This document shows, piece after piece, positions 13,376 through 40,010 of a DNA stretch of 64,000 nucleotides (position 1 is the stretch's first letter; every line of letters starts with the position of its first letter). The position numbers were made by a program, and so were the translations under genes. Origin of the DNA: Lunularia cruciata (Eukaryota; Streptophyta; Marchantiopsida; Lunulariales; Lunulariaceae). Under the pieces are notes generated by a model. It searched no databases. It saw only the letters and a program-made list of their open reading frames with translations, and had not been told where the DNA came from. The stretch covers positions 50,111,473 to 50,175,472 of the forward strand of contig OX419758.1 in assembly GCA_948567375.1 (NCBI GenBank), in the 5' to 3' direction.

Positions 13376-13841
13376 TGTAACACCCATTTGTGCATGTGTG
13401 TGGTATTGTGATATTTAGCTTGGTATTACAAGTACTTTAGAGATATTATTTATATAGAGATAAAGGATGGTTCTACATTAGTCATGATAAGCTAAAGTTA
13501 GTCATAACTAAGATAGAGGGGACTTTACTTTAGAGGAAGTGGGAAAGATGAGCACCACTATTTTGGATTCTAGTGTGTTGACTTGGTATTATTCTTAGGT
13601 GTTTGGCTTTGAGGAAAGAGTTGAAAACTCTTGGACCCGCAAGCCTTTTTGTTTTGGATTCTTCTATAGTCCAAGGATAGCCCATGTAAAGGAATCCTTG
13701 ACTTAGTGATTGGGTCAAGATAAGATCACATGCTAGTGGAATATGCCCATGTGAATGGATATTCCTTTCTACTTTTTGACTTTATTTGACTTTTAGTCTA
13801 GTAACTTGAGTTACTACGTTAATTAGTAACTTTGGTACCTA
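13376..13841 (+). mobile_element. Fam2 LTR fragment (plus)
   Basis: It begins TGTAACACCCATTTGTGCAT, the sense start of the Fam2 LTR (compare the complement at 39991-40010), and runs about 466 of about 680 bases before the sequence changes abruptly to Fam1 integrase. It inserted into the Fam5 integrase on its left. Truncated on the right. Confidence 0.85.
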
Positions 13842-13849
13842 GCTACTAC

Positions 13850-16399: not shown

Positions 16400-17667
16400 G
16401 TGAAGGCAGAGGTAGAAGAGAGGTCGGGTAGTGAAGCATCAATCCCGATACGAAGACTCCAAAGAAGAAGGCAAGTATCTGGAGAACACAAGGAGAAAAG
16501 AGAGACCACTCCGTGGGAGGAAGAAGTTGCTAGTGATGGAGTGGAGTACCTGCGAGAAGTAGTGTGCCTGCTGTTGGTGAAGTTGGAGCAGAAGAAGAAG
16601 GAGATGCAGTCGACTTGTCCCGAGGTAAAGACTGTATTGCAGGTGGTAGCAAGATTAGAAGAAGAGAACTCGGAGTTGAAGAGGAGTGTAACCCAAGGTG
16701 AGGAGGAGAGAGAAGTACTATGAGTGGATGCAATAGAGAGAAGTCAGGTAATTGAAGACCTGAAGAGGGAAGTGAGCTATTGAGAGGATCTTGCGAGGAA
16801 GAGTGATATTGCAAGAGAGAGACAGGTAGGTGAATACAAAATCTTGAAGCAACAGTTTGCTGATTCAAGGGTAGAGCTTATTCATGCTATGGCGAGGGTA
16901 GCAGTGAAGGATCAAGAGCTCAATAGAGTGATGGAGAGTATGGAGGAGAAGAAGCAACTCTGGAAACAAGAGTTGGCTGCGAGATATAGAGAAGAAGAGA
17001 GATTACGAGAGTTACTACGTAATCAGGAAGAGAAGGTTGTCCAGAAAGAGAAGGAGAAGGAGTCAATGAAAGCCGAATTCGAGGAAGAATTGGCGATGTA
17101 CAGAGAGGAATGGCTTGCAGATCGTGAACGAGAAAGGAAGACAAGATTGGAGCCATTGCAGGAGATAGTCCTCAGAGTAAACGCGATGTTAAGTACAGAG
17201 GCCAACATTCGAATTGAAGAAGCGTGACTACACAAGTTGAAGTTGTTGGTGCATGAGACGAGGCAAAGACAAGCAAAGGATATTGAGATGAACACCTTGT
17301 TAATAAATTAAGAGCTCGTGTAGATAGAAAGGTTTTGGAGGTAGAGGATAACATTTCCATTAGATTAGACTTAGTGAAAGTAGAGCTAGAAAAACTTCGG
17401 AAGGATATTAAAGCAAAACCCAAAGTAGATAACATAGGACTGCAAATGTCTTCGGAGTTGCCATTAGAGACATTAGAGAAGAGTGGGTCAAGAGATAAGG
17501 AGTTAGAAAGATTACCCACTAGCGGAATTTCAGATCAAGAAAGAGAATTGCTTGATCTGGTAGAAGAAGTAGGAGATCTGAAACCCGAGGACAGAGTAGT
17601 AGGAAGTAAGATTACTTCGGGTTTGGATTTGAAAGCCGAGGACGAAGTAGACATCAGATCGGATTAG
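16400..17667 (+). pseudogene. LTR-encoded coiled-coil region of Fam1
   Basis: Open segments at 16400-16723, 16844-17227 and 17335-17667 continue the coding region after 16399. The first two are long Glu/Lys/Arg/Leu heptad-like stretches (REEERLRELLRNQEEKV) typical of a coiled coil; the last contains LETLEKSGSRDKELERLP and ends DIRSD. The same three-part order is found at 62560-63751. A structural or oligomerising role is possible but is only inference. The region is broken a few times in this copy. Confidence 0.7.
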
Positions 17668-18461
17668 AAACCAATTTGAGATTTCAAGGGGCAGATATGA
17701 AGAGGTGCATTGTCATTTTGGATCTGCAGGTTAGAACAGTTGTGGTAGAACGGTATAGTTGTTAGAACTGTCAATTGCTTCACTATTTAAGAGTGGCATT
17801 TGCAAGAAATTGTTGTTCAGTGCTCATTATTTCTGAGAATAGATAAAGCGAAGTGCTGTGAAGTAGTGCTCGTTGCTTGAGCTTGATTTTGAGTATCAAC
17901 TTTATATCTATGTTTGTGAGTGTGTGAAGAATTTCGAAGTGCAAATCAGTGTGCTTGTTGGATGTTGGATTCCACAGCCTTGATCTTCATTCTGTGTGTT
18001 TGATACTGAATGAAGTGCAACCGAAGCAATGCCTTGATAGATTTGAGAGGAATTGTAGTGTTGGTAGTATTTTGCATTTGTGAATGTAGTGCGAAGTTGA
18101 TGTGAAGCAATTTCGATCAAGGAAGTTGTGCCTTTAGTGGAGGGGTAGAACACAATTCTGAAGCAAAGTCGTTTTGCAGTGAAGTGCCATTTTTGGGAGA
18201 GCCTGAATCATCACAATCAAGATTGTTTGGAAAGAATTGAAGGATTTATGATTAAGGAGTGTTAATTTGTGACAAGATTGCGAGTCAGTGCTTGTTACTC
18301 TCTTCTGGGTGTGGTTTCTACCTGAGAGATTAAAGATGCAACCAAGAAGAACTACATGTTATTGTTTGACTTTGTATTTGGACATTTCTGACTCGTATCT
18401 CTGCGGGAACAAACTTTACTTACCCAATTACCACAAAAGTGATATTTGCCGGGTTGTCACA
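17668..18461 (+). repeat. Non-coding 3' part of the Fam1 LTR (R/U5-like)
   Basis: It has no open frame and is conserved between Fam1 LTRs (compare 47935-48517, 60150-60859 and, on the minus strand, 10586-11370). It contains GATAAAGC, a possible polyadenylation signal, near 17843. It ends in TTGTCACA. Confidence 0.65.
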
Positions 18462-21307
18462 CCTATCAATCAATAGACTAGGGTTGATTGGTATGCCATG
18501 CCTATGTTGGAGGAGATCTTTGATGCAATTGAGCATGCAGAGGTCTTGGGTACTTTGGATCATAGAGTTAGATATTATCAATTGCCAATCACGGAGGAAG
18601 ATAAGGCTAAGATAGCATTTTGGGCTATTGATCTTCATGGCAAGGATTATTATATCAATAGTGGTTCTTACCATTTGGGTTAAAAAATGTTCTTGCCAAG
18701 TTCTAGAGGGTTATAGATAGGATTGGATTTTGCTTGGTGCTATATTGATGACATTTTGGTCTATACATTATTATGGAGGAGCATGAGAGATATTTGTTAG
18801 AGGTGTTTGAGAGATTGAGATCTCATAGATTCAAATTACATTTTAGGAACTATAGATTCTTCCACAAGTAGGTTGAGTATTTGGGTCACACTATCTACTT
18901 TGGAGGACTTGGTGTTTAAAAAACCAAGATGGAGGCTATTATATGTATTTCTTGCCCTACAGATATGAGCAGAGTGTGATCATTATTTGGGTTGGTAAAC
19001 TTCTATTGTTGATCTATTAGAGGATTTAGTACCATTGCCAAATCCTTGACAAATCTGACCAAGCTTACACATGAGTGGTGTTGGAAAGATGAGAGAGCTT
19101 TTATAGAGCTCAAGGAGAGGTTGATTCTGCCCTTATTCTAAAGAGACAAATCAGAAAATGACCATTTTAGGTTCACATTGATTGGAGTATGTTGGGGCTT
19201 GGAGCAATGCTCACCCAACATGATGATGAGGGGAAGGAGTTTGTGGTGGCCTATGCTAGTGGCTCCAACAATTCAACAGAAGCAAAGTATAATTCATATG
19301 AGAGAGAGTGCTTGGTAGCAATATGGGTAGTAGCACATTTCTAACGTCACCTATTTGGTAACCCCTTCACTCTCATCATTGATTATCAACCACTGAAGTG
19401 GTTGATGGAGTCCGACAAGCTTTTAGTGAAGCTTGTACAATGGGCCCGGATTTTATAGGAGTACAATTTCATGATCATTCACAAACTTGGAGTGGTGAAC
19501 CATGAAGCAGATGGGTTGAGTAGAAACCCATGTCCCAACCAGAAGGGACATATTGGAGCATGTTGGCATGGTGAGATAGATGAGGAGATGGTGCCAAGTT
19601 GGCATGCATATACCTTTCTATGTATATTTTTGAGGCTTTGGTGGTATCTCTCATAGTGCATTGAAGAGGAGTTATTGAAATCATAGATGTAGAGGGTGGA
19701 GATATTGGTATAGTCAGCAAGACATTCATGATGATATCTTAGTGATGGATTATCTTTCACTAGAGTTGTGGGTGGCATAGTTGGTGCCAAGGGGAGAGAT
19801 CATGTTCTTCAACAAGCCAAGCAATTTAGATTGGAGGGCAGACACCTTCTTTGTGTATGGGAGGGTGGTATAGTGCAAGTAGTACCACTTCCATCTTAGA
19901 GACCACAATTAGTTTATCATGCTCACAAGGAGCTAGAACATTTTGGAGTAAAGCATACATATAGCTTACTACAAAGTCATTGTTGGTGGAGTAGTATGTA
20001 GATCAATGTATAGCAATTTGTTGCTAGATGTGTGATTTGTGACCAAGTTAGAGCATCATTTAATGCTCCTATGCCATCATTACCTTCATGGGATTGGGTT
20101 ATTGTTGGAGTTTGGACTTTGCTAGACCTTTATCCTTTGATTGTAAGACATCATTGGTATGTTTTGGTTATGGTGGAGCACTTCTCCAAGTGCATTGAGT
20201 TGGTGGTACTTCCTGACAAGTCTAGTGAAGGGACGGCTTAGTCATTCTTGGATTGCATTCTTTAGTACACCAATTGAGGTTTTGACTAATTAGGGTATCG
20301 AGTTCTTGGGAGAGTTTCAAGTCTTGTGTGACAATGCATTGATGATCATCATACTACCTCTCAAGATCACCTTAAGACAAATAGCTTAGCAAGGAGAGTG
20401 GTTTAGATGATGAAGAAAGGATTGCATAAGTATGGTTTGTAGAGAGGCCACCTTGGAGATTGGGATCTCCAATTACCTTGGTTGGCCATGAGTTATTGGT
20501 TTAGCCGGCAAGCCTCCTTAGCATCCTTCTCTTCTTAGTTTCTACTTTATGGACAAGATCTAGATTTGCTTGCAGCCATTTGTCAAGATGCTAATGTAGT
20601 TTTGGACTTGAATGATCCAAACATATGGGTAGGTTAGTGCATGTTCTCAATAGGTATAGATATTTTGGAGAGTGATACCTTTAGCCTTTGAGAACTTGGG
20701 GATTTCTCAACATAAGGATACCTTATGCTATGATACCATTTGAGGAGGAGGTTATAGATCCTTAATCCATCAATTTTATCCAAGTGACTATGTATATCTA
20801 TCGCATACAACACCAATGACCCTTGATTTTACTACAAGCTGCACTATCTTGAGAGTGCATGAGGTTTACCTTTTGGAAACCTCGTGTTGGAAGGACATGA
20901 TGGTGTTGTTTTGAAGGATCATGTGCACCATGGCACCTCCCAAACACTGATGGAATTATAGATCCAAGCTTGGTACTTGTACATGCAGGCTTATGATTTA
21001 TGTAATGCGGTTCTTGTAGTGGAGTTGCTACTATATAGGTGTATAATAATTGTTCAAGAGGATGGCATATGGTCTATTTGACTCCTCCCTCATGGTGGTT
21101 CCTCAAGGATAGTGGTTATGTCTTAGATGTGCTTGATCTATAGCTAGTTCATCCTTTATGTGGTATAGATTGTAGACATACAACTAACAATAAGGCTCAA
21201 TAGCACTTGGTCTCTTGATCTTTGCCCAACATAGAGTATACCACATACTTGGAATAGATGGCTATCTACAGTTAGGCGGACTTAATTGCCAACTAGGGGG
21301 GCAATTC
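18462..21307 (+). mobile_element. Fam3 copy A: RT, RNase H and integrase remnant
   Basis: A very decayed Ty3/Gypsy pol on the plus strand. RT palm pieces are at 18480-18700 (TRVDWYAMPMLEEIFDAIEH region), RNase H at about 19170-19540 (ending NHEADGLSRNP), the integrase zinc-binding region and core at about 19900-20500 (CDQVRASFNAPMPSLPSWDW, HHWYVLVMVEHFSKCIELV). The 5' part was separated by the Fam1 LTR that ends at 18461. From about 20620 to 21290 no domain can be read. A purine tract (AGGGGGG, 21294-21300) precedes the LTR. Broken at many points; among the older layers. Confidence 0.8.
21294..21307 (+). promoter_or_regulatory. Polypurine tract, Fam3 copy A
   Basis: AGGGGGGCAATTC lies just before the sequence TGGCATTTTAGAG that recurs as the Fam3 LTR start. 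Confidence 0.5.
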
Positions 21308-22244
21308 TGGCATTTTAGAGTTCATGTATGAATTATGTGTAAGTTGTGCTTCTATAATGTATGATGGTGACAATGATGTATATTTTGGAGTGATGTATAT
21401 ATGCACAAAAATTTTCACAAGATTTGTGATGTCAAAGCTAGGTTGCTCAAACACTAGAGTGGTAGTGTTGGTAGTCATAGGTATTTTGGTAGTTACTCAT
21501 GAACTACTTGTTGGCAGTCCAATTTTATGTTAGGACTACTTATCACATGGTGAGACCCATCGTCACTTGTACCATTCACACCATTGGATGTGCTATTAGG
21601 GCTGGAGACCTAGGTCAATCAGAGGGGTATACCTTTGAAGTGTTGCTCTAAGGAGCTCACTTCTTTGATGTTGAGTCTTTGAGTTCTTGGTTATGGTGGA
21701 CAGAGGCTACCAAGCATCATTTGGAGTCTCTTAGCTAGAGTGGATATGACTTGATTGTAATTAGTTCCCAATTATTAGTAGATTGTTGAGTGAAGGATTG
21801 AGTACATACTTGATTAGAGAAAAAGAAATAACTGATTATTGCGACACTTTAGAGTTCATGTATGACTTATGTGTGAGTTTTGCTTCTATAGTGTATGATG
21901 TTGACATCAATGAATGTTGTGTACTGATGTATATACATATGATAGCTTCTAAAGGTCTCAAAGTAGGTTAGGCTTGAGTTGGAGAAGGTTCTAAAGGTCT
22001 CAAAGTGTAACAACCTCCAATTAGTTTCATTTGGTAGAGGAATTGGAGGTTGGCCAAGTGTAGTAGAGGTATACTAGAGTTGGAAAAAGTCTTATTGGCT
22101 AAATTTGGAGGTGCTACTCGTTTGAATCCCTAAAGTAGGGAGAGTTTTGGTAGCTGACCTTAGTTGGAGAGGCTTTTGGAGATCTCAAAGTGGGTTAAAC
22201 TTGAGTTGAAGAAGGTTCTAAAGGTCCCAAAATGGCAACAAACA
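21308..22244 (+). mobile_element. Fam3 LTR region with an internal direct repeat
   Basis: It begins TGGCATTTTAGAGTTCATG after a polypurine tract and ends just before a tRNA-Met-like primer site at 22245. About 105 bases at its start (21308-21415) recur at 21840-21945, so either the LTR has an internal duplication or two LTRs abut. Related sequence is found at 31786-32180 (plus), 35641-35897 (minus) and 39216-39329 (plus). From 21950 to 22240 the words AAGGTCTCAAAG and GGTTCTAAAGGTC recur several times. Confidence 0.65.
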
Positions 22245-22260
22245 AGGTATCAATGCCAAG
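22245..22260 (+). promoter_or_regulatory. Primer binding site, tRNA-Met-like, Fam3 copy B
   Basis: AGGTATCAATGCCAAG resembles the plant initiator tRNA-Met complement TGGTATCAGAGCCAAG at 13 of 16 positions and follows the LTR end. Confidence 0.5.
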
Positions 22261-23039
22261 AAAGAGGCTTTGAGGTACAAGGCTACAATAGTACATAAAA
22301 AGGTTTGAACCCTAGATCCTTGGTTCATAGACTAGGGCTTTAGCTTATTGGTACATCTTCACTTGTTGTTATAGAGATTAGTGGATTCATATTTATACAT
22401 GTATAGCTTTGGCTAGGACCCCATCCTTGGTGATCTTGGTAGTGTAGGAGTAGATAATTGCTCCTTTTATGTCAAATGCCAACTAATGGTAGTGTTAATC
22501 AGATTGAATTTGTGAGATGGAGGGGTATTATTTGGATTTCTTATGATTGGACCTCCTCTATTATTTGCTTTTGGGTTGTGAACCATCTTTGTGTGAGGTG
22601 CCTTGATATTTAGAGCATTGGTGGTCCAACGTACTCTTGTTAGTTAGGCTAGAGTGATGACCAATAAAACTAATTATGTTTCTTTCTGGTGAGGCAAGAA
22701 GTGATGACCTATAGACCATGAGAGTGTATGTTTTGATGGCAAGTTATAAGTTGCTCTTTGCCTAATGCAATTTTCATGGTTAGGGGTACTTAAGCTAGAT
22801 TAGTGGGTGATGTCCAATTGTTGGTAGCACTTGGTGGTTACAATTGTGGTTTGGGGTATATTGTCATGAAATAATTCTTTCAAGATTTGAGAAGAGATTT
22901 TTCTTAGTATGTTATGGGTTAACATGGAAAGGAACTTTGCATTAGCAAATATCTTATGACCCAATGAGTGAGTAAATTGATTCTGGTTTGGAGTTTGACA
23001 CAAGAGTTGAGTTGATCCAGTTGATAATGTACTTTGTAT

Positions 23040-24840
23040 GCTTACACCATTTTATAAGATATGGATAAAATTTACAAGGCCTCTAAATGCTCTAGATGTT
23101 ATTTTCATATAGTGGGTATCATTGAGTAGGATGATTTCATCCAAGAGTTTGATAGTGGTGTGATCTACAATAGAGATAGAATCCAACTTTGTTCATACCC
23201 TTCATGGCATGGAGAGGTTGTTCTAATACTTAGAAGGTCCACCTATGGATGATTACCACAAGTTTGAGAGAGTACACTTGGATGAGATTGAGCTTTGGAG
23301 ACAATATTGGTCTCCGAACTACATATCTAATATTTCAAGCTTAGTTTACAAAGGTAGAACAATATTACTCTTGAGTTCTAGCTCTAGTAGCATTGGTGTG
23401 TATCCAATAGAAGTGCATAGGTAGAGATGGTGCTACTACAAGTTGAGGTACTATTATAAGAGGTGGTATAAAACTTGGATTTAACTACATGGTGGAGATG
23501 TTCTCGTGCATGAGGCAAAATTACCAAGGAGTGCAGATAGAAAATATGAAGAGCTTGAAAGAGTTCTAATGGAAGGTTGGAGAGAGCCTATGCAAGGCAT
23601 ACACTTGCATGGGATGGCTGAATAGTTTCACTTGGGGAGATATTGAAGCACAAGTTGTCCAATTTTTGTATGGGATAATAGAAAAGGAGCTATAATGTCA
23701 AGAACATCATGCTACATTGTTATAGGCTACCTCACCAACTATGGTAGTGGTCTTTGCTTTGGAAAGTGCATTGAGATCAACTTGGTGGAGGAAAGTGTAC
23801 TGACATCTGGATTTGGTAGGGAGAACTCATCCATAATTGGTACTTCTTGTAAATCATAGTAGAGTGCACCACATTATGTTAGCTCTTTTGGACAAAGTAG
23901 ACCTGTCAGCCGGCCTGTCTCTCACTCAGGATGAAGCTCTAATGGCTATTATGGTAGCGCACCATGGACTAAGAAGGCAAGAAACCCCAACTCCATCATA
24001 CTCCTCCAAGGCTAACACTCCAAGACTCAAGACATTACTCACTAGAGAACTCAATGAGAGAGAGATAGTTGCAAATGAAAGGATGATGAGTACCTCCTCA
24101 CCCCTTGTTTATATACTTGTGGAATAGTTACGTACCAAAGTTACTAATTACCGCAATAACTCAAGTTACTAGACTAAAAGTCAAGTAAAGTCAAAAAGTA
24201 GAAAGGAATATCCATTCACATGGGCATATTCTACTAGCATGTGATCTTATCTTGACCCAACTACTAAGTCAAGGATTCCTTCACATGGGCTATCCTTGGA
24301 CTATAGAAAAATCCAAAACAAAAAGGCTTGTGGGTCCAAGAGTTCTCAACTCTTTCCTCAAAGCCAAACACCTAGGAATAATACCAAGTCAACACACTAG
24401 AATCCAAAATAGTGGTGCTCATCTTTTCCACTTCCTCTAAAGTAAGGTCCACTCTATCTTAGCTATGACTAAATTTAGCTAATCATGACTAATGTAGAAC
24501 CATCCTTTATCTCTATATAAATAATATCTCTCAAGTACTTGTAATACCAAGCTAAATATCACAATACCACACACATGCACAAATAAGTATTACAGACCAT
24601 TCTAACTTCATGTAGTGCCTAGTACACATAGATCCTTACACTCATTCTTTAGTCAACAACAACCAATAAGTAGTGGTGTTGCTTGTTGAACTTGTGGTGG
24701 ACCTCACTACAAGAGAGAGTGCACCCAAGGTAATGACATGCTATCTCAAGAGCACCTCAGCCAACCTAGAGGTAGTGTGACCACTACCATAGATTTGATC
24801 ACACTAGTGACCAATGCTTTGACTTACACTTAGAGTTATA
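23040..24840 (+). pseudogene. Fam3 gag remnant (copy B), interrupted by a solo LTR
   Basis: Plus-strand remains of capsid/nucleocapsid sequence. The block near 23190-23330 corresponds to 34650-34800 in copy C. A zinc-knuckle segment (CGGPHYKRECTQG) is at about 24690-24730, and a second knuckle region with the words DQCFDLHL follows at about 24810-24835. The solo Fam2 LTR at 23904-24594 lies inside it. Broken at several points. Confidence 0.65.
23904..24594 (-). mobile_element. Solo Fam2 LTR in Fam3 gag
   Basis: A complete 691-bp LTR; the plus strand reads TGTCAGCCGGCC ... AGTATTACA, the complement of the sense LTR. It is flanked by GACC on both sides (23900-23903 and 24595-24598; probably a 5-bp AGACC duplication with one base lost), and the flanks join into a continuous Fam3 gag sequence. 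It differs from the LTR at 39330 by only a few percent by eye, so it is a fairly recent insertion. The small open frame at 24252-24440 recurs in other copies of this LTR because the LTR is repeated. Confidence 0.88.
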
Positions 24841-25599
24841 GAGTGGTAAGCTCCTATGGCAAGAGGAAGAGGAGTCACAAGTCATGGAGGATGATATGGT
24901 AGAGGTGGAGGTAGAGGATCCACATTTGGTAAGGCCATTATACATGCTCTTGCTCTTGATACAACAATGATTACTTGGATTGAACAATTGGAGTAAAGAT
25001 TTTCTAGCATGGCTATAGCTCAGAGGAGATCAAGTTCAAGTGCTAAGACTTCCACCTCTTATATGATGGTGATAGAGATCTCATTGACTTCATGTGTGGA
25101 TCAACATAGATAGATGCATCCACAATAATGACTAGGAGTGTTGTAAATGCCCTTGAGCCTAAAGGAGCATTAGCAGAGGTGGATCTAAAGAGAGAGGAGG
25201 TTGGTAGATAGGTCAGACTTTCCTAATATTTCACACTTAATGAGGCATTATAGATGACATCCATGGCTCTTAAATGTCCAAGTGCAAGTGTGGTAGGTGG
25301 AGATGGAGTGCAGCATGAACCACATACTAGTTAGCTACCTACTTCTACCAAGTCTAGCACAATGTTGGAGGCAGCTCAATTGATTATGTGCTCCACTTTG
25401 TTCTTAGCCGCCAACATGTTTACACTAAGATTTCATCCAACTCCAATGTTCTAGTTAGTTGCCACACTCAATGAGAGTAGAGATAATGTGGTTCTTGCTT
25501 CTAGTGGAAAGGTGGTTGATGGTAAAGCCAACTTGGTTGAGGAGCATGGGATCCATTATTCTATTAGTGACTTGTGGTGAGCAATAATTTCTAGGTTGA

Positions 25600-26100
25600 A
25601 GGAGTTATTAACTAGACTTACATTTGAGCAAGCTAAGTTTAAAGTTGGAGTTTTCCTTTTGGATAACTAGAGTAGGATTTTCAATTTTTTTGGACCTTTA
25701 AGGAAGTTCAATACACCATATAGGGTCTTATTAGAATTTGGTGTGTAGCTTCTTATGTTTCAAAAGGTTTTACTTCTTAGGCTAGGAAAGACCAATATTG
25801 AGAGGTGTCCATTTCAAATACAAAAATCTCTAGTGGTGGTTCCAAAAAATACAATACATATGAGGAGCTCATTATCCATCTTTAGTCCAATCATCTCATT
25901 GATAATTCTATGATGAGAGCTCAAGCCATTGTGATAGTAATAGAGTCATATCATGTGTTGGTGGGAGGAGTAGTGTTATACTCCATGGGTTTCAACATTT
26001 GCTATTGGGAAGAGATAGAATCCTATAGGGAAAGTTGGCAATTAATTGAGGTATGTGTATGCTTACCAGTGTGCTTTAGTAGTGGTGGTCTTAGCTCACT
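25600..26100 (+). pseudogene. Fam3 aspartic-protease-like region
   Basis: Plus-strand sequence near 25600-25760 has FEQAKFKVGVFLLD and, around 25727, a LLEFGV segment in the place where retropepsins have the hydrophobic-hydrophobic-D-[ST]-G active site. The open piece at 25910-26104 contains YHVLVGGVVLYSMGF, resembling the VLVG(R/G)..LY..G strand that closes the retropepsin fold. Its position between gag and the methyltransferase fits. Broken. Confidence 0.55.
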
Positions 26101-26429
26101 ATAGTCACAAACCATAGCATCAATCTTAAATTTTTAGTGGTTATCACTTGGTCTTGTCAATTTCTTGAGAAGAACCCCCATGTGGAGGATACCCCAATAC
26201 TAGAGGAGGTCATTTGGATTTGGAATACAAGTGGAGTTGTTCCATCTACCTTGCTTGTTCCATTGTAGAGTTTTATTGAGGAATTGTAGTAGTATCTGAA
26301 GCAATTAGTGCAATAAGCTTAGAGTGGAGCTTTTATATTCTTGGTGGACTGATTTGAAAATAATCCTCCAAAGTCTATTACCTTACCACCTTTGGATATC
26401 AAGTTTATTGCTTGGCAATATCCAATGGA

Positions 26430-27390
26430 GAGAGTATTTTATTGGATTTATTTGGTGGGATCAGTACTAGACTAATTGTAGTCTTGCAGGTACATATACA
26501 ATTTCAAAGGTACTTGTATATGGAGAGTGATGTGACTGTTAGATGAGTCTCTCTACATCATGTATCACACTTGTGGCTATTGGTATCTTGAGTAATTACT
26601 AATGTCATTAGTCAAGGGTAACCAAAGGACCCTACCATTAGATGTTTCCTTGATGAGGACATATGATCTAGAGAGATATGGTACTATTCATGGCCATGGA
26701 TTTCTAGATGGCCATGTTAGGGATATATTCATGTTGGCCAAGCTTAGGGTCTACAATATCCTTGCTTTGGTATGTTTTGGGAGAAGCTACATATATTATG
26801 ACATCTCCAAGCTCATCAAGTAATTCTCTCTAGCATATATTTTTAAGAATGTCCCTTTGATGGGTGATTCTTTCACATAGGTGTTGGAAAGTACATATTA
26901 GATTTGGTCTTGGATTGGACTTATTGTATCGTTGGATGTAGCCAAAGTTGGATCACATGCTTATTATCTTTGTCTTTGGTGGATAAACCTCTTACTTAGA
27001 GAGGTTCTATAATGTGCATATGATGGTATTCAACAACCATCACACTTGATAGTTGATGACATTTTGGATATTGTGCACTAATCTCAAATGATGTGAATGG
27101 TTAATAGATTACTTATGGTAATGGTGAACCTTGTTGGATAACACACAACCACTTTACCCATATTCATGAGTTTCCCAACATCCCAAGCCTATTGGGGTGT
27201 AGGTCTTGGGCTTGTTTGGGACTCGTAATTATATAAGTTGGTAGAGCTCAACATTGATGAAAGAGAATAGGTGATGGGTTTCTATATTGGTATCACTATC
27301 ATTTCAATAGTGCTAGAGGTATCCAAGCATTAAGTGCTAGGTTAGCCATAGACCTAAATTGTTTGACCTAGATTTTGGGCCTTTGATTAC
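26430..27390 (+). pseudogene. C5-cytosine DNA methyltransferase remnant inside Fam3
   Basis: In plus-strand frames, short conserved pieces of a C5-cytosine methyltransferase appear in the family's usual order: motif I as LDLFGGIS (26442-26465), the following acidic strand YLYMES (26511-26528), a segment resembling the target-recognition side VSLMRTYDLERYG (about 26645-26690), motif VI-like NVPLMGDS (26848-26871), IWSWIG and DVAKVGSHA near 26900-26960, VDDILDI (27052-27072), a motif IX-like DERE then MGF (27256-27282). Such enzymes add a methyl group to cytosine in DNA; the spacing resembles the DNMT3/DRM side of the family more than DNMT1/CMT, but that is a guess. It lies between protease and RT of one retrotransposon in the same orientation. 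The reading frame is broken at many points and not every catalytic motif can be read, so it is a fossil. Confidence 0.72.
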
Positions 27391-27399
27391 TTGAGTTGA

Positions 27400-27989
27400 T
27401 GCACTTGACAAGCACCAAAACTTGAACACTTGTGAGCTTTGTACCTATCAAGACAAGTCAAGCACATATTGGGGATGATAAGCCAAGTGGGCATGGTATT
27501 CTTAGTACATAACTAATGATAACTAGTGAGAGTAGTTTACTTGGGATACATCCAAGTGAGCAAGGTCCACTTGGGATACACCCTTGGTCTCCTTGAGATG
27601 TAGCTAGAGGATTTGTGGAACTTGCTCTAAGGTTGGAGACTCTAGCTGGCATGACAGTGTTTCTCTCAAGGTCTTAATGTGTCTTCTAATACCAATTTAT
27701 GCATCTTCTACCTCTATAGCAATTATAGAAGATGGGAGCAAAATATTGGACCCAAACTTAAAGGAGAGAAAAGACAAAGATTTTGGAGGTTTTTAGAAGT
27801 TACATGAATTGTTTTGCCTTTAGTATGAAGGATTTGGTGCTTTGAAAGAACCTGATATTTTGATTGAGTTGACTAATAAACTAATCTTTCTAAATCCTTA
27901 CAAATATAATGGCATGGAGAGAGCCTTAATTTGGTAGAGATTTCATATAGAGAGTATGATTCAGCCAAATTGATGCTAGGTAAGAAAGA
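27400..27989 (+). other. Linker between methyltransferase and RT of Fam3
   Basis: About 590 bases in which I cannot recognise a domain. It is presumably internal sequence of the same element, since the RT piece that follows is in the expected orientation. Confidence 0.4.
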
Positions 27990-28190
27990 CATGCATGGCA
28001 AGTAATAAAATAGGAGGATATGTGTAGATTACAATCCTATCAACTTACAAACTAGGGTTGATTGATATGTTATGGCTATAATGGAGAAGATATTTGATAC
28101 AATTGGGCATGTAAAGGTCTTCAATACTTTTGGATCTTTGAGTAAGATATCATCAATTGCCAATCAAGGAGGAGTATAAGTCCAAGGTAA
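27990..28190 (+). pseudogene. Start of Fam3 RT (copy B)
   Basis: Sequence at 28010-28180 encodes RICVDYNPINLQTRVDWY, the RT fingers/palm region of a Ty3 element, and matches copy A at 18462-18600 base for base over long runs. It also shows what the Fam1 insertion target at 18462 looked like (CCTATCAAC). It is cut at about 28190 by a Fam4 copy. Confidence 0.75.
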
Positions 28191-28292
28191 CATGCTAATG
28201 CCAAGCTCATGCTAAGCATTTGGAGTTTCACTCACTTGAGAGTTCCAATGTGATCTTCTATTCCTTTTATTTCTCTTCTTAGTCTTTTACAT

Positions 28293-31785: not shown

Positions 31786-33216
31786 AGACCTCACACATCC
31801 TTGCTATCACAACATTTGTAGTGCTAAAGCTAGTTTGCTCAAAAGTTGGAATGTTAGTCTTGGCTCTCATAGTATAATATTAGTTGCTCAGATCCATATT
31901 TCAGGTTAGGGCTATTGATCATACTGTTAGAGCTACTATTTATTACACCATTTGCACCATTAGATAGGATGTTAGAAGCGTCATTAGTTTAGATTTCTAA
32001 GTTGAGTAGAAGAGTATACCTTCAACATATAGCTATAGAGAACTCAGTGCTCTAATGTTGAGCTATTGAACTCTTGGTTATGGTGGTTAAAGATCCACAA
32101 GCATCACCTAGAGTCTCTTAACTAGAGTGAGTGTAGCTTGAAAGTGTAATCAAGGCCCACTGTTGGTAGTTTTATGGAGTAGGATGTAAAGTTTACAATC
32201 TAAGTTGAGAGTGTGAGCATTTGACTACATCAAAGAAGTGAGCCAAGGAGAAATCAAGTGCAAGAAGAGCAAGCATTGGTGGTATTTCCAATTTTGGGAG
32301 ATCATTGGTACCTTCAATTGTTGCTTGATTTCTCTTAGAGTAATTGTGTGTAGAAGCTCTATCAAATTTATGTGAAGATTTTGATAGAGTTTTTGGACTT
32401 GGTGTGGATGCACTACTAAAAGTCCAAAATGGGTCCATGGGTGTTCAATGGCATTGAAATATGGTTTAATTTAAGCACAATGTAATACCATTAGCTAGAC
32501 ATATTATATAGAGGTGGAAATTGGCTTGGTAATATCTTGAGAAATGTTATACATGATGGTCTAACTAGATCAGATAAAGGTGTCACCAAAAGAGTGCTTT
32601 CACTAATAAGGAACTGCCAAAAACACCTTGAAAGCTTTAGAGTCAATTTTGGAGACCTAAATGGATGAACTAGGCCTTGAAAAATTTATATGCCTCTAGA
32701 GTGAAGTATTTATTTCTCCCTGCTTGTTTGTCTTGTTAAGAGACTTCCAATAATATCTCAGCCATGTTGTTGTGAGCTTCTTATAAGAAGATTCTCCAAA
32801 TATTCTCTTTAGTAAAACTTGTTTGACCAAAAAAATAGGACAAGGATCTAGATTTCACCAATCCATACATCTAATCTAAAGGTGAAGCTTGCTGACATAT
32901 CTCCAATCTATGTATCTTATCCAAGGGTTTAGCTCCTTTTGCATGGATTTTCTTTGTTATATAATAAAGACAAGGTGCTCCTTTGGGACATTAGAGGGAT
33001 GAAGCTTTGCGTTTCTCTTGAGGTTCTTTTATCCTCGGGAAATTACATACAAGGAGGTGAAATTAAGGTTGAGTGATACAAAATTAGGCCCAAGATGCAA
33101 AGTTGGAGTTGGATTTGAGAACCTATCTCCTCAAGTTAAGGATTTGGAGGTCCACATCCTCTCAATCTGAAATTGGCATTTGGTAGAAGATTTGGAGGTA
33201 AGCCAATTGTAATATA

Positions 33217-33640
33217 GGTCTACCAAAGTTAGTGGAAGGTTGATTTGGAGGCCAATCCCAAGGTAAAGCAAGTATTAGAAGTCGGCCAAAATTGGACAAG
33301 ATGGAGGTCTCAAATTGAGTTAGTGGCAAAGTTAGTCAAGATTAGCTTGTTGGAGAAGGTTTGATTTGGAAAGAAGAAAAGTCTCATTTGCCATTTAATT
33401 TTAGTATAGGTCTACCAAAGTTAGTGGAAGTTTGAATTGGAGGCCAATCCCAAGGTAAAGAAAGTATTGGAGGTCGGCCAAAGTTGGACAAGCATATGGA
33501 GGTTTCAAACTGAGTTAGTGGCCAAGTTAGTCAAGGTTAGCCCATTAGAGAAGGTCTGATGTGCCAAGGAGAAAAGAAAGTGAGTTAATAATCAAGTTAA
33601 TCAAGGTTAGTCTATTTAGAAAGGGTTTGATTTGGCAAGA
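33217..33640. repeat. Tandem repeat, unit about 192 bp, two copies plus a partial third
   Basis: GGTCTACCAAAGTTAGTGGA occurs at 33217 and 33409, each followed by GGAGGCCAATCCCAAGGTAAAG and then GTTAGTCAAG. A shortened third unit (AATCAAGTTAATCAAGGTTAGTC) follows at about 33590. It lies in the leader of Fam3 copy C; copy B has one diverged unit near 22065. Confidence 0.8.
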
Positions 33641-34559
33641 AGAAAAAGCTACATTTGGCATTTAAAGACTTTGAGGCATAAAGTTATGGGCTAAAGAAAC
33701 TATGAAGGCCTATAAGGAGAACAAGCCAGCTTGTTGGTATGAAGCTTGAAAATTAAGGATAGTGCACAATATGGTTTGAAACCTAGGTCTTTGGTTTCTA
33801 GACTAAGATAATAGCCAATTGATCCATCCTTACTTGTTCTAGATATCAGTGGACTCATATTCATATCTATGTTACTATGGCTAGTTAACAATTGATCCCA
33901 TCCTTGGTGATCCTAGTAGTGTAAAAGTAGATAAACACTTCTTCTATTATTCAAATTCCAAAGTGTGGTAAAGGTGATTTAATTTGGACTTGTGAGATAG
34001 AGGGTTATCATTTAGATTTATTTTTTATTGGACTTCTTCCATTTTCTTTGCTTCTTGTTTGTGCACCATGTTTGTGTGAGGTACCTAATATTTGGAGCAT
34101 TAGTGCTCTGATGTGCTATCAATAATGAGATTGGAGTGATGACCAATCAAACTACTTATGTTTCTCTTTGATGAGGCAAGAAGTGATGACCTACAAATTG
34201 TGAGAGTATATGTTGTGATGGCAAGTTACAAGTCACCCCTTCTTTTTGTATAGTTGTCACGGTTATAGTTACATTAATGTGTGGTTTTTAGTGGGTGGTG
34301 ACACTTGGTGATAGTTCTTGGTTGTGGTACTTGGTGGTTACAATTGCGGTTTGGAAAAAATTATCACAATAGAGTTCTTTGGGTATTCTAGAGGAGAGTT
34401 TTCTTTATTACTCAATAGGTTTACATGGAGTGGCACTCAATATCAGCATGTAGCTTAGATCCCAATGAAGGAGGAGATTCATTCATTTGGAATTTGATAT
34501 GAGAGCTCATTCAGTTTAGAGTGCACATTGTCTATCCACACTATGTTTTTGGGACACGG

Positions 34560-35640
34560 AAAAGATTTATAAGGCCTTCAAAGACCCCAAGTGCTACTCT
34601 GGTACAATGGGTATCATTGACTTAGATGACTTCATCCAAGAGTTTGATAGTTAATGTGATTTGAAGTGGATGCAAAACTTGACTTTATTCACACCCTTCA
34701 TGGCATGGAAGGTGGTGTTCCAACACTTGGAGAGTCCACCAATGAATGACTACTATTAGTTCAAGAGAGCACACTTAGAGGAGAGCTAAGGAGATAGTAT
34801 TGGTCTTTGAACTACATCTCCTTCACTTCAAGTTCAATTTCTAGAGATTGATCAACAATACTTACAAGTTCTAGCTCTAGTAGTGTTGGTGTACCCAATG
34901 GTGGTGCACTAGTTTGAAATGGTGCTACTACAAGTGGAAGTACCACTATAAGTGGTAGTCAAATATGCAAGATTTAATCCCATGATAGAGATCTTCTAAT
35001 GCTTGAGGTACAACTACCAAGGAGTGTGGATTGACAAGCTAAAGAGCTTGTAAGAATTCTAATAGAAGGCTAGAGAGAGCCTACATGAAGGATATACTTG
35101 CATGAAATGGTTGATAAGTTTCACTCAAGGAGTTATTGAGATCCAAGCAATCCAATTCTAGTATGAGGATAGTATTGGATAAGGAGCTACAATGCAAAGT
35201 ACGTTATACTATATTGTTGCATGCTACCTCACCAACTTTGGTAGTGGTCTTTAAATTGCCAAAATACATTGAGCTCAACATGGTAGAGGAGAGAATGGTG
35301 ATATTTGGATTTGGTAGGGAGATGTCATCCATAGTTATTACTTCTTTTGGAGTGCACCACACCATGTTGGCTATCAAGGGTAGAATGGATAGCCTCAATA
35401 TTATGGATCAAGTGGAGGCCCTGTGCAGGTAAAATGTTACTTTTATTTTCTAGCTAGTAGTAGCTAGTGAGTAGAAGTGTTACTTATTGGAATTTTGGTG
35501 GACCTCACCACAAGAGAGAGTGCACCCAAGGTAATGGGCATGATAACTCTAGAGCATCACAACCAACCAAAAGACAATGTAACCATTGTTGTAGATTTGG
35601 CCATATTAGTGACCAATGCTTTGACCTCCACTTGGAGTTT
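34560..35640 (+). pseudogene. Fam3 gag remnant (copy C)
   Basis: Capsid-like region followed by the zinc-knuckle segment described for copy C. The second knuckle (35566-35607) is a canonical CX2CX4HX4C. The parallel to copy B confirms that gag is the 5' gene of Fam3. Confidence 0.7.
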
Positions 35641-35897
35641 GTTGTGCGTATATGCATTGCTACAAAATACATGTTGTTGTCATTATCATACACTATAGAA
35701 GCACAATTCATACAAAAGTCATACATAAACTCTAAAGTACCACAATAATCAATTTACATTCAACTCAAATCACACTTAACTTGAATCAAAAATAAATCCT
35801 CAACTCAATGGTTTGGAAACAATGGCCTTGATTACAGTCAAGCTACACCCACTCTAGCTAAGAGACTCTACTAGGTGGTACTTGCCAATCCTTTTCA
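35641..35897 (-). mobile_element. Fam3 LTR fragment, inverted
   Basis: The complement reads GTCTCTTAGCTAGAGTG, then GATTATTGTGGTACTTTAGAG, then GTATGATAATGACAAC, matching 21720-21945 in order. It is inverted relative to copy C and lies between copy C gag and a Fam2 LTR. Confidence 0.75.
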
Positions 35898-36597
35898 TAT
35901 GAGCCGGCTTAACTCTCACTTAGTATGAACCTCTGATGGTTATTAAGGTAACATACCATGGACTAAGAAGACAAAACACCCAAACTCTATTGCACTCTAG
36001 CAAGGCTAGAACTCCAAGGCACATCCAATACTCAAGACATTGCTTACTAGAGAACTCCATAAGAGTGAGATAGTTGTAAATGAAAGGATGATGAGTACCT
36101 CCTCACTTATAGCTTATATACTAATGAAAAATTTACACACCAAAGTTACTAGATATTAGAGTAACTCAAGTTACTAGGCCAAAAGTCAATTAGAGTAAAA
36201 AAATTCTAAAGAATTATCCAAGCACATGGAATAATCCTATGGGTAAGTGGTTTTATCTTCACCTACCAACTAAGTCAAGGATTCCTTCACATGGGCTATC
36301 CTTGGACTATAGAAAAATCTGCACAAACAAGGCTTGTGGAAAGAGTTTTCAATTCTTTCCTCAAAGTCAAATAACTATGAATAATACCACATCAATATAT
36401 TAGAAGACAAAATAGTGATGCTCTCTCTTTTCCTTCCCTCTAGAATAGGGTCACCTTTATCTTAGCTAGGACTAACTCTAGTTAATCTTGACTAATTTAG
36501 AAGCTTAGTTAAACTCTATATAGATAATATTTCTCCGCTAATTGCAATACCAAGCTTAATATCTTTATAGAGCATACATGCACCAACAAGTATTACA
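35898..36597 (-). repeat. 3' LTR of the older Fam2 copy
   Basis: Complement begins TGTAATACTTGTTGGTGCATG and ends GCCGGCTCATA. It is preceded in sense by the tract GGGGTAAA, the family's polypurine tract. Confidence 0.8.
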
Positions 36598-36869
36598 TTT
36601 ACCCCTAGACTAAGATTTCACTTTGTCCTAGGAAGGAAAGTCCTTTTACCTTCTATGATACAACTTCAACTTATCATAATTAATCCTATCCCAACTCCTT
36701 GAGATTATAAGTGTAGTGGTCCCACACCAAAGTATACTCAACACCATATACCAAATGAAATAGAGAATATCTGGTGGATGTTGTTATGGTTGTCCTATAC
36801 AATCACAAAACCACATGAATCCCCTTGGCTCAATGATGTTATTCCCCTTCCATTTTTGCATCTTTGGCC

Positions 36870-37532
36870 TGTGAGCTGGCCTATCTCTCACTCAAGATGA
36901 ACCTTTGATAGTTGTTATGGTAGCGCACCATGGACTAAGAAGGCAAGGAACCCCAATTCCATCATACTCCTCCAAGATCCAAACCATTGCTCACTAGAGT
37001 ACTTGATGAGAGAGAGATAGTTGCAAATGAAAGGATGATGAGTACCTCCTCACTCCTAGCTTATATACTTATGAAATAGTTATGCACCAAAGTTACTATT
37101 TATTGGAGTAACTCAAGTTACTCGGCTAAAAGTCAAACTCCAAAGGAATATCCATACTCATGGGACTATTTTCCTAAGCATGTGGTCTTATTTTGACCCA
37201 ACCATTAAGTCAAGGATTCCTTCACATGGGCTATCCTTGGAGTATAAAAGAATCCAAAACAAAAAGACTTATGGGTCCAAGAGTTCTCAACTCTTTCCTC
37301 AAAGCCAAACATCTAAGAATAATACCAAGTAACATATTAGAATCCAAAATAGTGGTGCTCATCTTTTCTACTTTCTCTAAAGTACGGTCCTCTCTATCTT
37401 AGCTATGACTAAATTTAGCTAATCATGACCAATGTAGAACCATCTTTATCTCTATATAAGAATGTTTCTCAAGCACTTATAATATTATAATAAATATCTC
37501 AATAGCACATACATGCACAAATGGGTGTTACA
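36870..37532 (-). mobile_element. Fam2 solo LTR inserted in a Fam2 integrase
   Basis: The plus strand reads TGTGAGCTGGCC ... GGGTGTTACA, 663 bp. The left flank ends TTTGGCC and the right flank begins TGCCAATATC; the intact relative at 40590-40615 reads TTTGGCCAACATC, so the flanks join cleanly with a short target duplication (about TGGCC). A younger LTR has thus landed in an older member of its own family. Confidence 0.85.
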
Positions 37533-39215
37533 TGCCAATATCATGCACAAGGTTTGATTGGTTCTCTCATCCAAGCCATTGGAGTTTATAAGAGATAGTC
37601 ACTCTATGTGTGTAATGGAGAAAGGTTGTAGCATGGCCATAGTGATACTTCCAATAAACACTCCTCCTTTATTAGAAACCAACTCCAAAGTGCACCAAAT
37701 CTAGTGATTATATGTTCATAAAGAAATCTACCAACTTTATCTTCATTCTTGTCTTTCAATGGCCTAGCTTTGACCCCACTGGTAACTACCTCAATGTACC
37801 AATTGTTTCTCGGGGTTCTATTGAGAGGACCTACAAAGCCAATTCTCTACTTCTCAAAAGGTCCAAGAAATGGAATTGATCTGAGAGGTGAAGTAGAGGT
37901 AGACTTCCTTGCAAAAGCTTGACAAACATTACAAGTTTTGCAATCATCAAGACAATCCTTGAAAATTCTCCTCTGATATTAACTTGCATCCAGAATCTTG
38001 AAAGCGGTTACCTTTCTTGCAAAGTGATCCCCACATGCCAAACCATCATGAAACTCCTTCATGAGTAGGATAGACTCCTCTTTACCCATTGCTCTTTGAA
38101 GTAGACAATCTACTCCTTGATAGAAAAGAATGTTCTCCACTATTGTATAAGGTCTAGATCTTGCTATAAGGGCCTTCCTCTCCCTAGCATGCATCTCATA
38201 AGGATAGTTTCCTCTTGTAAAAAATTTTACAATCTCCTTGTACTCCATTGGAATCTCTTGAGTGATTGAGATTGTCATGAGCTCTTCATCTAAAAAAGAA
38301 TCATCCACTAGCTCAACTCCATCACGATCATATGACTTACATAATAAATCAGCATTTGTGTGTTTCTTCTTTGGCCTATCCTTAAAGGTGTAATCATACT
38401 CAGACAAGAGTATTATCTACCTTGCTAGCCTTCCCTCCAATTAGGCTTGTTGAAGATGTACTTCAAAGCTTTATGATCCATGAGAATGGTGGACTTCCAC
38501 TCCAATCAAGTAGTCTCAAAACTTCTTGAGACCAAAGATTACTACAAACCCTTCCCTTTCTATGATTGAATAGTTCTTCTCTATTGAGACCATTTAAATA
38601 CTAGAATAAGCTATTGGATGATCATGCTCATCTTGGTCTAATTGATTAAGAGTGCATCTTATAGCTACATTGGAAGCATAAGTGTAAAGGATGAAAGGCT
38701 TAATCCAATCAAGTTTAGCAATAATTAAAGCCATAACAAGGGATTTCTTGAGCTCCTTAAAAGCTTTAAAAGCTTCCTTGTCCTCCAAAATCACTATGTA
38801 TTCTATACCCTTCTTCATGTGAATGGTTAGCATATAAGCCTTATTGGAAAATGAGAAGATGAACCTCCTATAGTACCCAACTATCCCCAAGAATTGGCAT
38901 AACTTTTTCAAGCTTGAAGGGAATGGAAGCTCTTAGATTTCCTCACCTTTTTAGGATCCACTACTATTCCATCCTTGGAAATGATATGCCCTAAAATTAG
39001 ACCTGCTTCACAACCAAAGATGCACTTCTTTAGGTTGAGTGATGCATTTGCTTCAACCAAGCATTGCAAAATTTTGATCAAGTGCTCTTCCTTGCTCCCT
39101 TAGACACAAAAGTCATCAATGAAATCTCTCACAAATTTTCCAACAAAAGGTTCAACATGTTGTTCAAGAACCATTGAAATGTAGTTGGAGCATTACAAAG
39201 CCTATCATTCCATTT

Positions 39216-39329: not shown

Positions 39330-40010
39330 TGTGAGCCGGCCTGTCTCTCACTCAAGATGAACCTCTGGTGGCTATTATGGTAGCGCACATGGACTAAGAA
39401 GGCAAGGAACCCCAACTCCATCATACTCCTCCAAGGCTAACACTCCAAGACTCAAGACATTGCTCACTAGAGAACTCAATGAGAGAGATAATTGCAAATG
39501 AAAGGATGATGTGTACCTCCTCACCCCTTGTTTATATACTTGTGAAATAGTTACGTACCAAAGTTACTAATTACCGTAGTAGCTCAAGTTACTAGACTAA
39601 AAGTCAAGTAAAGTCAAAAAGTAGAAAGGAATATCCATTCACATGGGCATATTCCCCTAAGCATGTGGTCTTATCTTGACCCAACCACTAAGTCAAGGAT
39701 TCCTTCACATGGGCTATCCTTGGACTAAAGAAGAATCCAAAACAAAAAGGCTTGCGGGCCCAAGAGTTCTCAACTAGCCAAACACCTAGGAATAATACCA
39801 AGTCAACACACTAAATTCCAAAATAGTGGTGCTCATCTTTTCTACTTCCTCTAAAGTAAGGTCCCCTCTATCTTAGCTATGACTAAATTTAGCTAACCAT
39901 GAATAATATAGAACCATCCTTTATCTCTATATAAATAATATCTCTTTAGTACTTATAATACTAAGCTAAATATCACAATACCACACACACACGCACAAAT
40001 GGGTGTTACA
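39330..40010 (-). repeat. Fam2 3' LTR
   Basis: The plus strand reads TGTGAGCCGGCC ... GGGTGTTACA, so the sense LTR is TGTAACACCC ... GGCCGGCTCACA, with the usual TG/CA ends. A TATA box (sense TTATTTATATAG) is at 39926-39938. Five other full or partial copies occur in the window (13376, 23904, 36870, 55741, 58317). Confidence 0.92.
39926..39938 (-). promoter_or_regulatory. Fam2 LTR TATA box
   Basis: The sense (minus) strand reads TTATTTATATAGAG, and the motif is conserved in the LTRs at 24515 and 55808. Confidence 0.55.

Follow-up and report, generated by a model that had tools for sequence, protein, structure and literature searches.

A decayed DNMT3-type cytosine methyltransferase domain within a Gypsy-type retrotransposon family of the liverwort Lunularia cruciata

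Does a retrotransposon of a land plant carry its own cytosine methyltransferase? The question is raised by a 64,000-nucleotide stretch of the Lunularia cruciata genome (NCBI GenBank assembly GCA_948567375.1, contig OX419758.1, forward-strand positions 50,111,473 to 50,175,472; hereafter the window, numbered from its first letter). A preliminary description, made from the letters alone, had named short methyltransferase motifs between a gag-protease region and a reverse transcriptase (RT) region and had taken them for the fossil of a C5-cytosine methyltransferase in a plant Ty3/Gypsy element with the order gag-protease-methyltransferase-RT-RNase H-integrase. Comparison with relatives confirms that window positions 26436-27390 are a decayed DNMT3-type cytosine methyltransferase (DNMT) domain inside a copy of a Gypsy-type retrotransposon, here called copy B.

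The named motifs were all found in plus-strand frames of 26430-27390 in the order described, together with catalytic motif IV, which had been overlooked. A profile built from 29 relatives (28 proteins and one genomic contig, L001), with the window sequence excluded, matched the window at 26827-27345 (143.8 bits) and at 26442-26840 (58.6 bits), which bears out the presence of a C5-cytosine methyltransferase in a retrotransposon; on both strands of the window the profile found no second DNMT site at the threshold used. The entry point to the relatives was the better-kept RNase H/integrase part (19180-19630) of a second copy in the window, copy A, from which a protein search led to P0001, ordered RT-RNase H-integrase-PHD finger, and to P0002 (Marchantia polymorpha MARPO_0091s0058), which contains RVT_1, RNase H, and PF00145. 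With P0002 as the query, tblastn returned a colinear pair of a protease-like match (25353-26041) and a methyltransferase match (26131-27342), with a joint E of 1.3e-58, and an RT match at 27750-28098 (E 3e-17). PF00145 was above its cut-off in 9 of the 16 relatives scanned, a set that includes P0001, which is without the domain. For relative P0010, DNMT3A was the top Protein Data Bank (PDB) match by sequence, and DNMT3A/3B were top by predicted fold. In the alignments, the motifs of the window and of the relatives run in the order I-IV-VI-VIII-IX-X, without a DRM-type rearrangement. The features of copy B are as follows.

21405-28193, plus strand: copy B, carrier of the methyltransferase, with leader, gag, nucleocapsid (NC), protease (PR), DNMT, and the 5' part of RT (blastn of genome copy L019; RT similarity ends near 28190)
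23061-23902, plus strand: gag, in several frames (tblastn of P0003, P0004, P0006, P0009, and others)
About 24611-24847, plus strand: nucleocapsid zinc-knuckle region (tblastn of relatives, blastn of L019)
25062-26041, plus strand: protease region (tblastn of P0009, P0004, P0024, and others; frames)
26131-26265, plus strand: linker upstream of the methyltransferase, kept in relatives
26436-27390, plus strand: DNMT3-type C5-cytosine methyltransferase domain, broken, with at least four frame changes and 16 stops
26709-26723, plus strand: catalytic motif IV, W-P-C-stop-G, with the Cys codon at 26715-26717
27750-28193, plus strand: N-terminal part of RT (tblastn)

By blastn, L019 aligned to copy B at 21405-23902 (65.5% identity) and 24611-28232 (71.0%). 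The protease site that reads DSGA in relatives reads EFGV in copy B, at about 25734.

The same arrangement is present elsewhere in the host genome (565.8 Mb, 74 contigs), in which 123 PF00145 matches were scored out of 2161 first-look candidates; the copy number of the family is known as a lower bound only. Eight loci (L002-L009) were fetched with the search itself and 20 more at rough steps down the PF00145 table. The order protease-DNMT-RT was seen in four of the eight, and 19 of the 20 contained gag, protease, DNMT, and RT in order, the domain thus lying between protease and RT as the preliminary description had expected of other copies. Eighteen of the 20 continue through RNase H, integrase, and PHD finger, in agreement with the order claimed for the element, and the odd one, L011, is a host DRM gene. 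In a blind test, copies were picked by their match to P0001, with 44 scored among 64,630 first-look candidates; in the first eight, DNMT was directly upstream of RT in every case, the matched parts were stop-free in six and the matches lay in two pieces in two, and the motifs WPCQ and ENV were read in seven and eight copies, respectively. All 44 P0001-matched rows show TGA; where the fetched copies have it close to where the match finishes, it closes the open reading frame (ORF). Twelve of the 44 have one TGA only, taken as that closing stop. Elsewhere in the host genome the family is abundant and young, with some frames open. Among the host's own genes are DNMT3-like ones whose motifs are not rearranged (L002, judged by PDB match, and L005, by eye) and, alongside, DRM genes (L003, by eye, and L011); both kinds share the enzyme fold and motifs of the element domain, the DRM motif order being rearranged. 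L004 is a methylase fragment above the PF00145 cut-off, without a match to the element domain.

The catalytic Cys is present in all 26 rows of the relatives' alignment that cover it, and motif VI retains Glu in 29/29 rows and Asn in 28/29; all three residues are present in 23/23 genome copies. Pro-Cys is replaced by Glu-Cys in 5 of the 27 rows covering the Pro (P0025, P0027, P0028, P0029, and P0031), and motif VI of these relatives reads ENV in P0025 and ENT in the other four. Median pairwise ratios of nonsynonymous to synonymous substitution (dN/dS), calculated after loci without more than 90% coverage in one frame were dropped and with all branches pooled, were 0.41 for DNMT (21 of 23 loci), 0.34 for RT (14 of 19), 0.25 for gag (17 of 19), and 0.50 for integrase (17 of 19); stop-free loci made up 7/21, 7/14, 8/17, and 6/17 of these sets. 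Compared with Marchantia, L019 is 70% identical to P0002 in DNMT, 70% to P0002 and 78% to P0012 in RT-RNase H, and 57% to P0004 over the whole Gag-PR-DNMT ORF. These ratios and identities would fit a useful domain, short of proof.

A UAG stop lies at the same place between Gag-PR-DNMT and RT-IN-PHD (IN, integrase) in 18 of 19 copies (L020 is without it), 307 nt past the match in most. The six bases that follow start with CAG and fit CAR-YYA, the leaky stop context of tobacco mosaic virus, in 17 copies; L022 has TAG as its next codon. In L001, whose domain shows 51% identity, the sequence is UAG CAATCA, and P0025 of Closterium has no such stop. The position of the UAG therefore places the enzyme in the Gag ORF and would make RT-IN dependent on readthrough. 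Gag-PR-DNMT would then be the main product, with the enzyme made at the level of Gag and freed by the element protease, and RT-RNase H-integrase-PHD would be produced by readthrough of the stop.

In place of the two identical long terminal repeats (LTRs) of an ordinary Gypsy element, split direct repeats in the layout A1 (about 450 bp)-body-B1 (107 bp)-A2-B2 were found in 14 of the 15 copies examined (of 19), the 15th, L012, having A1 and A2 only; no pair of A repeats was seen in the stretches fetched for L015, L025, and L027. The element starts with TGTCA in the 10 copies with flanks and ends with GACA in eight of the nine with B2 (AACA in L013), and an exact 4-bp target duplication is present in 8 of 9 copies (absent in L026). 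In four copies (L010, L013, L014, and L019), the B1/A2 junction consists of GACA, two bases, and TGTC (TATC in L010), with a purine run just upstream of B1. The junction looks as if two ends had been joined, and replication may pass through a circular or head-to-tail form that is cut by the DDE integrase. Divergence between A1 and A2 is low (K 0.0135-0.0345, median 0.018, in nine copies; 70 transitions and 9 transversions), and the insertions are therefore recent. The window preserves B1-A2-B2 of copy A (21304-21944), whose features are as follows.

18462-21164, plus strand: copy A, with RT, RNase H, integrase, and PHD finger, the last at 20883-21089 (tblastn of P0001, E 1.6e-149)
21304-21410, plus strand: repeat B1 of copy A, 83% identical to B of L019
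21413-21838, plus strand: repeat A2 of copy A, 68% identical to A of L019 over 21413-21819
21838-21944, plus strand: repeat B2 of copy A, 86% identical to B of L019

Copy B itself is a fossil, as had been described, given the frame changes and in-frame stops of its domain. By eye, 12 of the 16 stops are at sites that are mostly Gln, Arg, or Trp in near relatives, with three elsewhere and one ambiguous; codons for these amino acids can become stops by C-to-T and G-to-A changes. Within the domain, the frequency of CAG+CTG is 0.11 of that expected, CpG occurs 2 times against 31.6 expected, and the control GAC+GTC is at 0.95. Over the whole of copies A, B, and C (a third copy, described below), CAG+CTG stands at 0.18, 0.14, and 0.11, with the control also lowered (0.74, 0.79, and 0.63), and in two less decayed window repeats it stands at 0.85 and 0.73. 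Joint loss of CG and CHG is the expected trace of CG and CHG methylation, the plant-type pattern, and most likely the window copy lost these sites through deamination of methylated cytosine. This depletion, together with nearest named relatives of the element DNMT in Calypogeia (73%) and Marchantia (70%), supports a land-plant host and suggests a liverwort.

Very probably, then, copy B is a decayed member of a land-plant retrotransposon family with a Gypsy-type Pol and a DNMT3-type domain last in the Gag-protease ORF, in which the expression proposed above and methylation of the element by its own enzyme would operate. The basis of this explanation is the domain itself, situated between protease and RT, together with the sibling copies, the DNMT3-like sequence and modelled fold, the catalytic residues, the ends, and the UAG. 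De novo methylation by the enzyme would be directed at the cDNA of the element itself or at its fresh insertions, and would either let a new copy pass as host DNA or restrain it. Restraint without any hiding, in which the element methylates and silences its own fresh copies and so limits damage to its host, is a less likely alternative. By analogy, a PHD finger and a DNMT3-type enzyme in one element resemble DNMT3A, in which an ADD domain is paired with the catalytic domain, and the decay of the copies is of the methylation type, as in the excess of transitions between A1 and A2; the host's own DNMT3-like and DRM genes could account for that decay, however. Restraint is also among the options listed in the discussion section of de Mendoza et al. 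(PMC5890265). That the domain is a relic with a structural or RNA-binding role, retained for packaging and without DNA methylation, is less likely still: its location in the Gag ORF and the Glu-Cys of five related elements would suit this reading, but the constancy of Cys, Glu, and Asn among the relatives and the genome copies argues against it.

Several observations weigh against the preferred explanation of an element that encodes and uses a methyltransferase. Stops interrupt 14 of 21 full-length DNMT domains of genome copies, and RT-to-PHD is free of inner stops in 1 of 19 whole-fetched element loci. The second motif VIII Arg is Cys in 7/23 genome copies, the motif I Gly is altered in 5/23, and the blind-picked copy L056 reads WLCQ, with Leu-Cys for Pro-Cys; the window copy keeps Pro-Cys, but it has Lys in place of the motif VI Glu and has lost both Arg residues of motif VIII. 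The dN/dS values are weak evidence for a needed enzyme, because neutral decay of inserted copies raises them and the C-to-T bias also shapes them. The UAG, common to copies of one young family, counts as one observation and not 18, with L001 as the single independent case. Direct searches with the window copy were also empty, because its reading frame shifts at least four times and is interrupted by 16 in-frame stops: Pfam on six stop-masked frames of the raw copy gave 0 families at E up to 10, so that the PF00145 match looked for there by the preliminary description did not appear, a protein-database search with the broken domain gave 601 candidates, none at E 10, and a PDB search with the broken frames gave no match.

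Two further alternatives are rejected. Accidental insertion of an unrelated methyltransferase gene into this one element copy might be suspected from the presence of the domain in one of three partial window copies, copies A and C being broken off before or after its place; it is highly improbable and is refuted by the blind-picked copies, as the same placement recurs in these and in the fetched loci and is common to Marchantia and L001. Chance resemblance of short motifs, which the raw frames without any Pfam match could suggest, has a negligible probability and is rejected, since none of 300 dinucleotide shuffles of the segment scored above 0.8 bits, and the reversed window reached 2.2 bits, against the 143.8 bits of the window domain.

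Relatives of the element were found by protein search in Marchantia, Calypogeia, Sphagnum, and Closterium. In P0001 and P0025, RT, RNase H, and integrase are above the Pfam cut-offs, the integrase of P0001 being of the rve type, and protease and gag were assigned by homology, as the Pfam matches of P0020 (protease) and P0004 (gag) were below cut-off. A PHD finger is located at the integrase end, the place of a chromodomain in many plant Gypsy elements, in P0001, P0027, P0028, P0029, P0032, and the window. Among viral contigs, 24 pattern matches contained 0 relatives, and among genome contigs, 113 contained one, L001. Its record, CADCWO010000201.1, belongs to a metagenome assembly labelled as cyanobacterial, and the eukaryotic element that it encodes is probably a contamination.

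A DNMT tree was built from 18 element domains together with human DNMT3A, one DNMT3-like gene of the host, and two of its DRM genes. The 18 element domains formed one clade (100/100) on a long stem, apart from all of the others. Within it, elements with the order RNase H-DNMT-integrase (whole in P0027, P0029, and P0030; partial in P0028, P0031, and P0032) grouped at 93/86 and those with protease-DNMT-RT at only 78/73, with P0025 loosely placed. In the RT-RNase H tree, the RNase H-DNMT-integrase elements were again one clade (100/99), and P0025 was again loosely placed. One capture and a later move within the polyprotein account for this most simply; the domain may instead have been captured twice from the same source, one outside the sampled set. 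A wider history is offered tentatively, as possible and not as probable: a green-plant element lineage that combines Gypsy Pol and a DDE integrase with split repeats of the DIRS-like kind would have captured a DNMT3-type enzyme once, in ancient times, with the domain later moved in the polyprotein between its two positions. Land plants would make the enzyme at the level of Gag by means of the leaky UAG, and the enzyme and PHD finger would write a silent mark on the element's own DNA, aiding its survival in heavily methylating hosts.

The closest known kind, as far as the available parts of de Mendoza et al. 2018 (PMC5890265) describe it, is KnitGypsy-Dnmt3 of Klebsormidium nitens, a Gypsy element with a Dnmt3 domain and DIRS-like repeats. 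Both elements have a Dnmt3-type domain without DRM rearrangement in a Gypsy-type element, conserved key residues, and, according to the legend of Fig. 4 of that paper, a DIRS-style repeat arrangement. Compared by description only, the element here differs in its land-plant host and many copies, and it shows a PHD finger, a 4-bp duplication, and a UAG downstream of a domain that belongs to the Gag-PR ORF. None of the relatives found by protein search was labelled K. nitens. The same paper describes SymbioDIRS-Dnmt3 and SymbioLINE-Dnmt of Symbiodinium as retrotransposons with a captured cytosine methyltransferase, with de novo CG methylation by the SymbioDIRS enzymes in its assay; these use DIRS or LINE machinery, in contrast to the Gypsy Pol with DDE integrase here. 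Marchantia polymorpha P0002 and P0004 (Mp_4g09160) have the architecture of the element here, and such Marchantia proteins are annotated only as hypothetical or under a domain name. DIRS/PAT elements have a tyrosine recombinase in place of a DDE integrase and make no target duplication; the element here is like them in its split direct repeats and unlike them in its rve integrase, with a homologue in 18/20 loci, and its 4-bp duplication.

In the portions available, a 2019 paper (PMC6338049) states that land plants lack such transposons, and the open literature, including PMC9033089, PMC8616336, and PMC10538959 and with subscription papers and preprints outside its scope, yielded no description of such elements in land plants; the leaky-type stop, target duplication, and second domain position appear to be without counterpart in the literature so covered. 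Land plants do contain such elements, as seen in the host genome and in the Marchantia entries, and these are numerous and recently inserted, at least in liverwort-like hosts; the evidence does not extend to vascular plants. A land-plant mobile element thus travels with the kind of enzyme that its hosts use to silence such elements, and, Marchantia being a genetic model, the reason becomes testable. The chimeric ends, with split direct repeats, DDE integrase, and 4-bp duplications, pose a question of replication.

Of the copies in the window, copy A is 81% identical to the young copy L019 over 3.6 kb, and copy B 71% over 3.7 kb. The left edge of copy A (18462) abuts the end of a 1-kb repeat (17418-18461) with an inverted second instance at 10586-11624, and the left half of this copy was not found within the window. 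An Rfam scan of the window gave no match. The remaining features are as follows.

31805-35639, plus strand: copy C, with A repeat (31805-32209), leader, gag, and NC, broken off after NC
23904-24594, plus strand: solo LTR of another retrotransposon family inside copy B, TG..CA, with GACC on both sides

Directly after the NC of copy C, at 35640-35886 on the minus strand, lies a rearranged fragment of this family that consists of B and part of A. The solo LTR is one of at least six instances in the window of a repeat of about 700 bp (23904-24594, 36868-37533, 39330-40010, 35900-36598, 55739-56438, and 13376-13845), which are 74-95% alike in pairwise comparison and are apparently the LTR of another Gypsy family.
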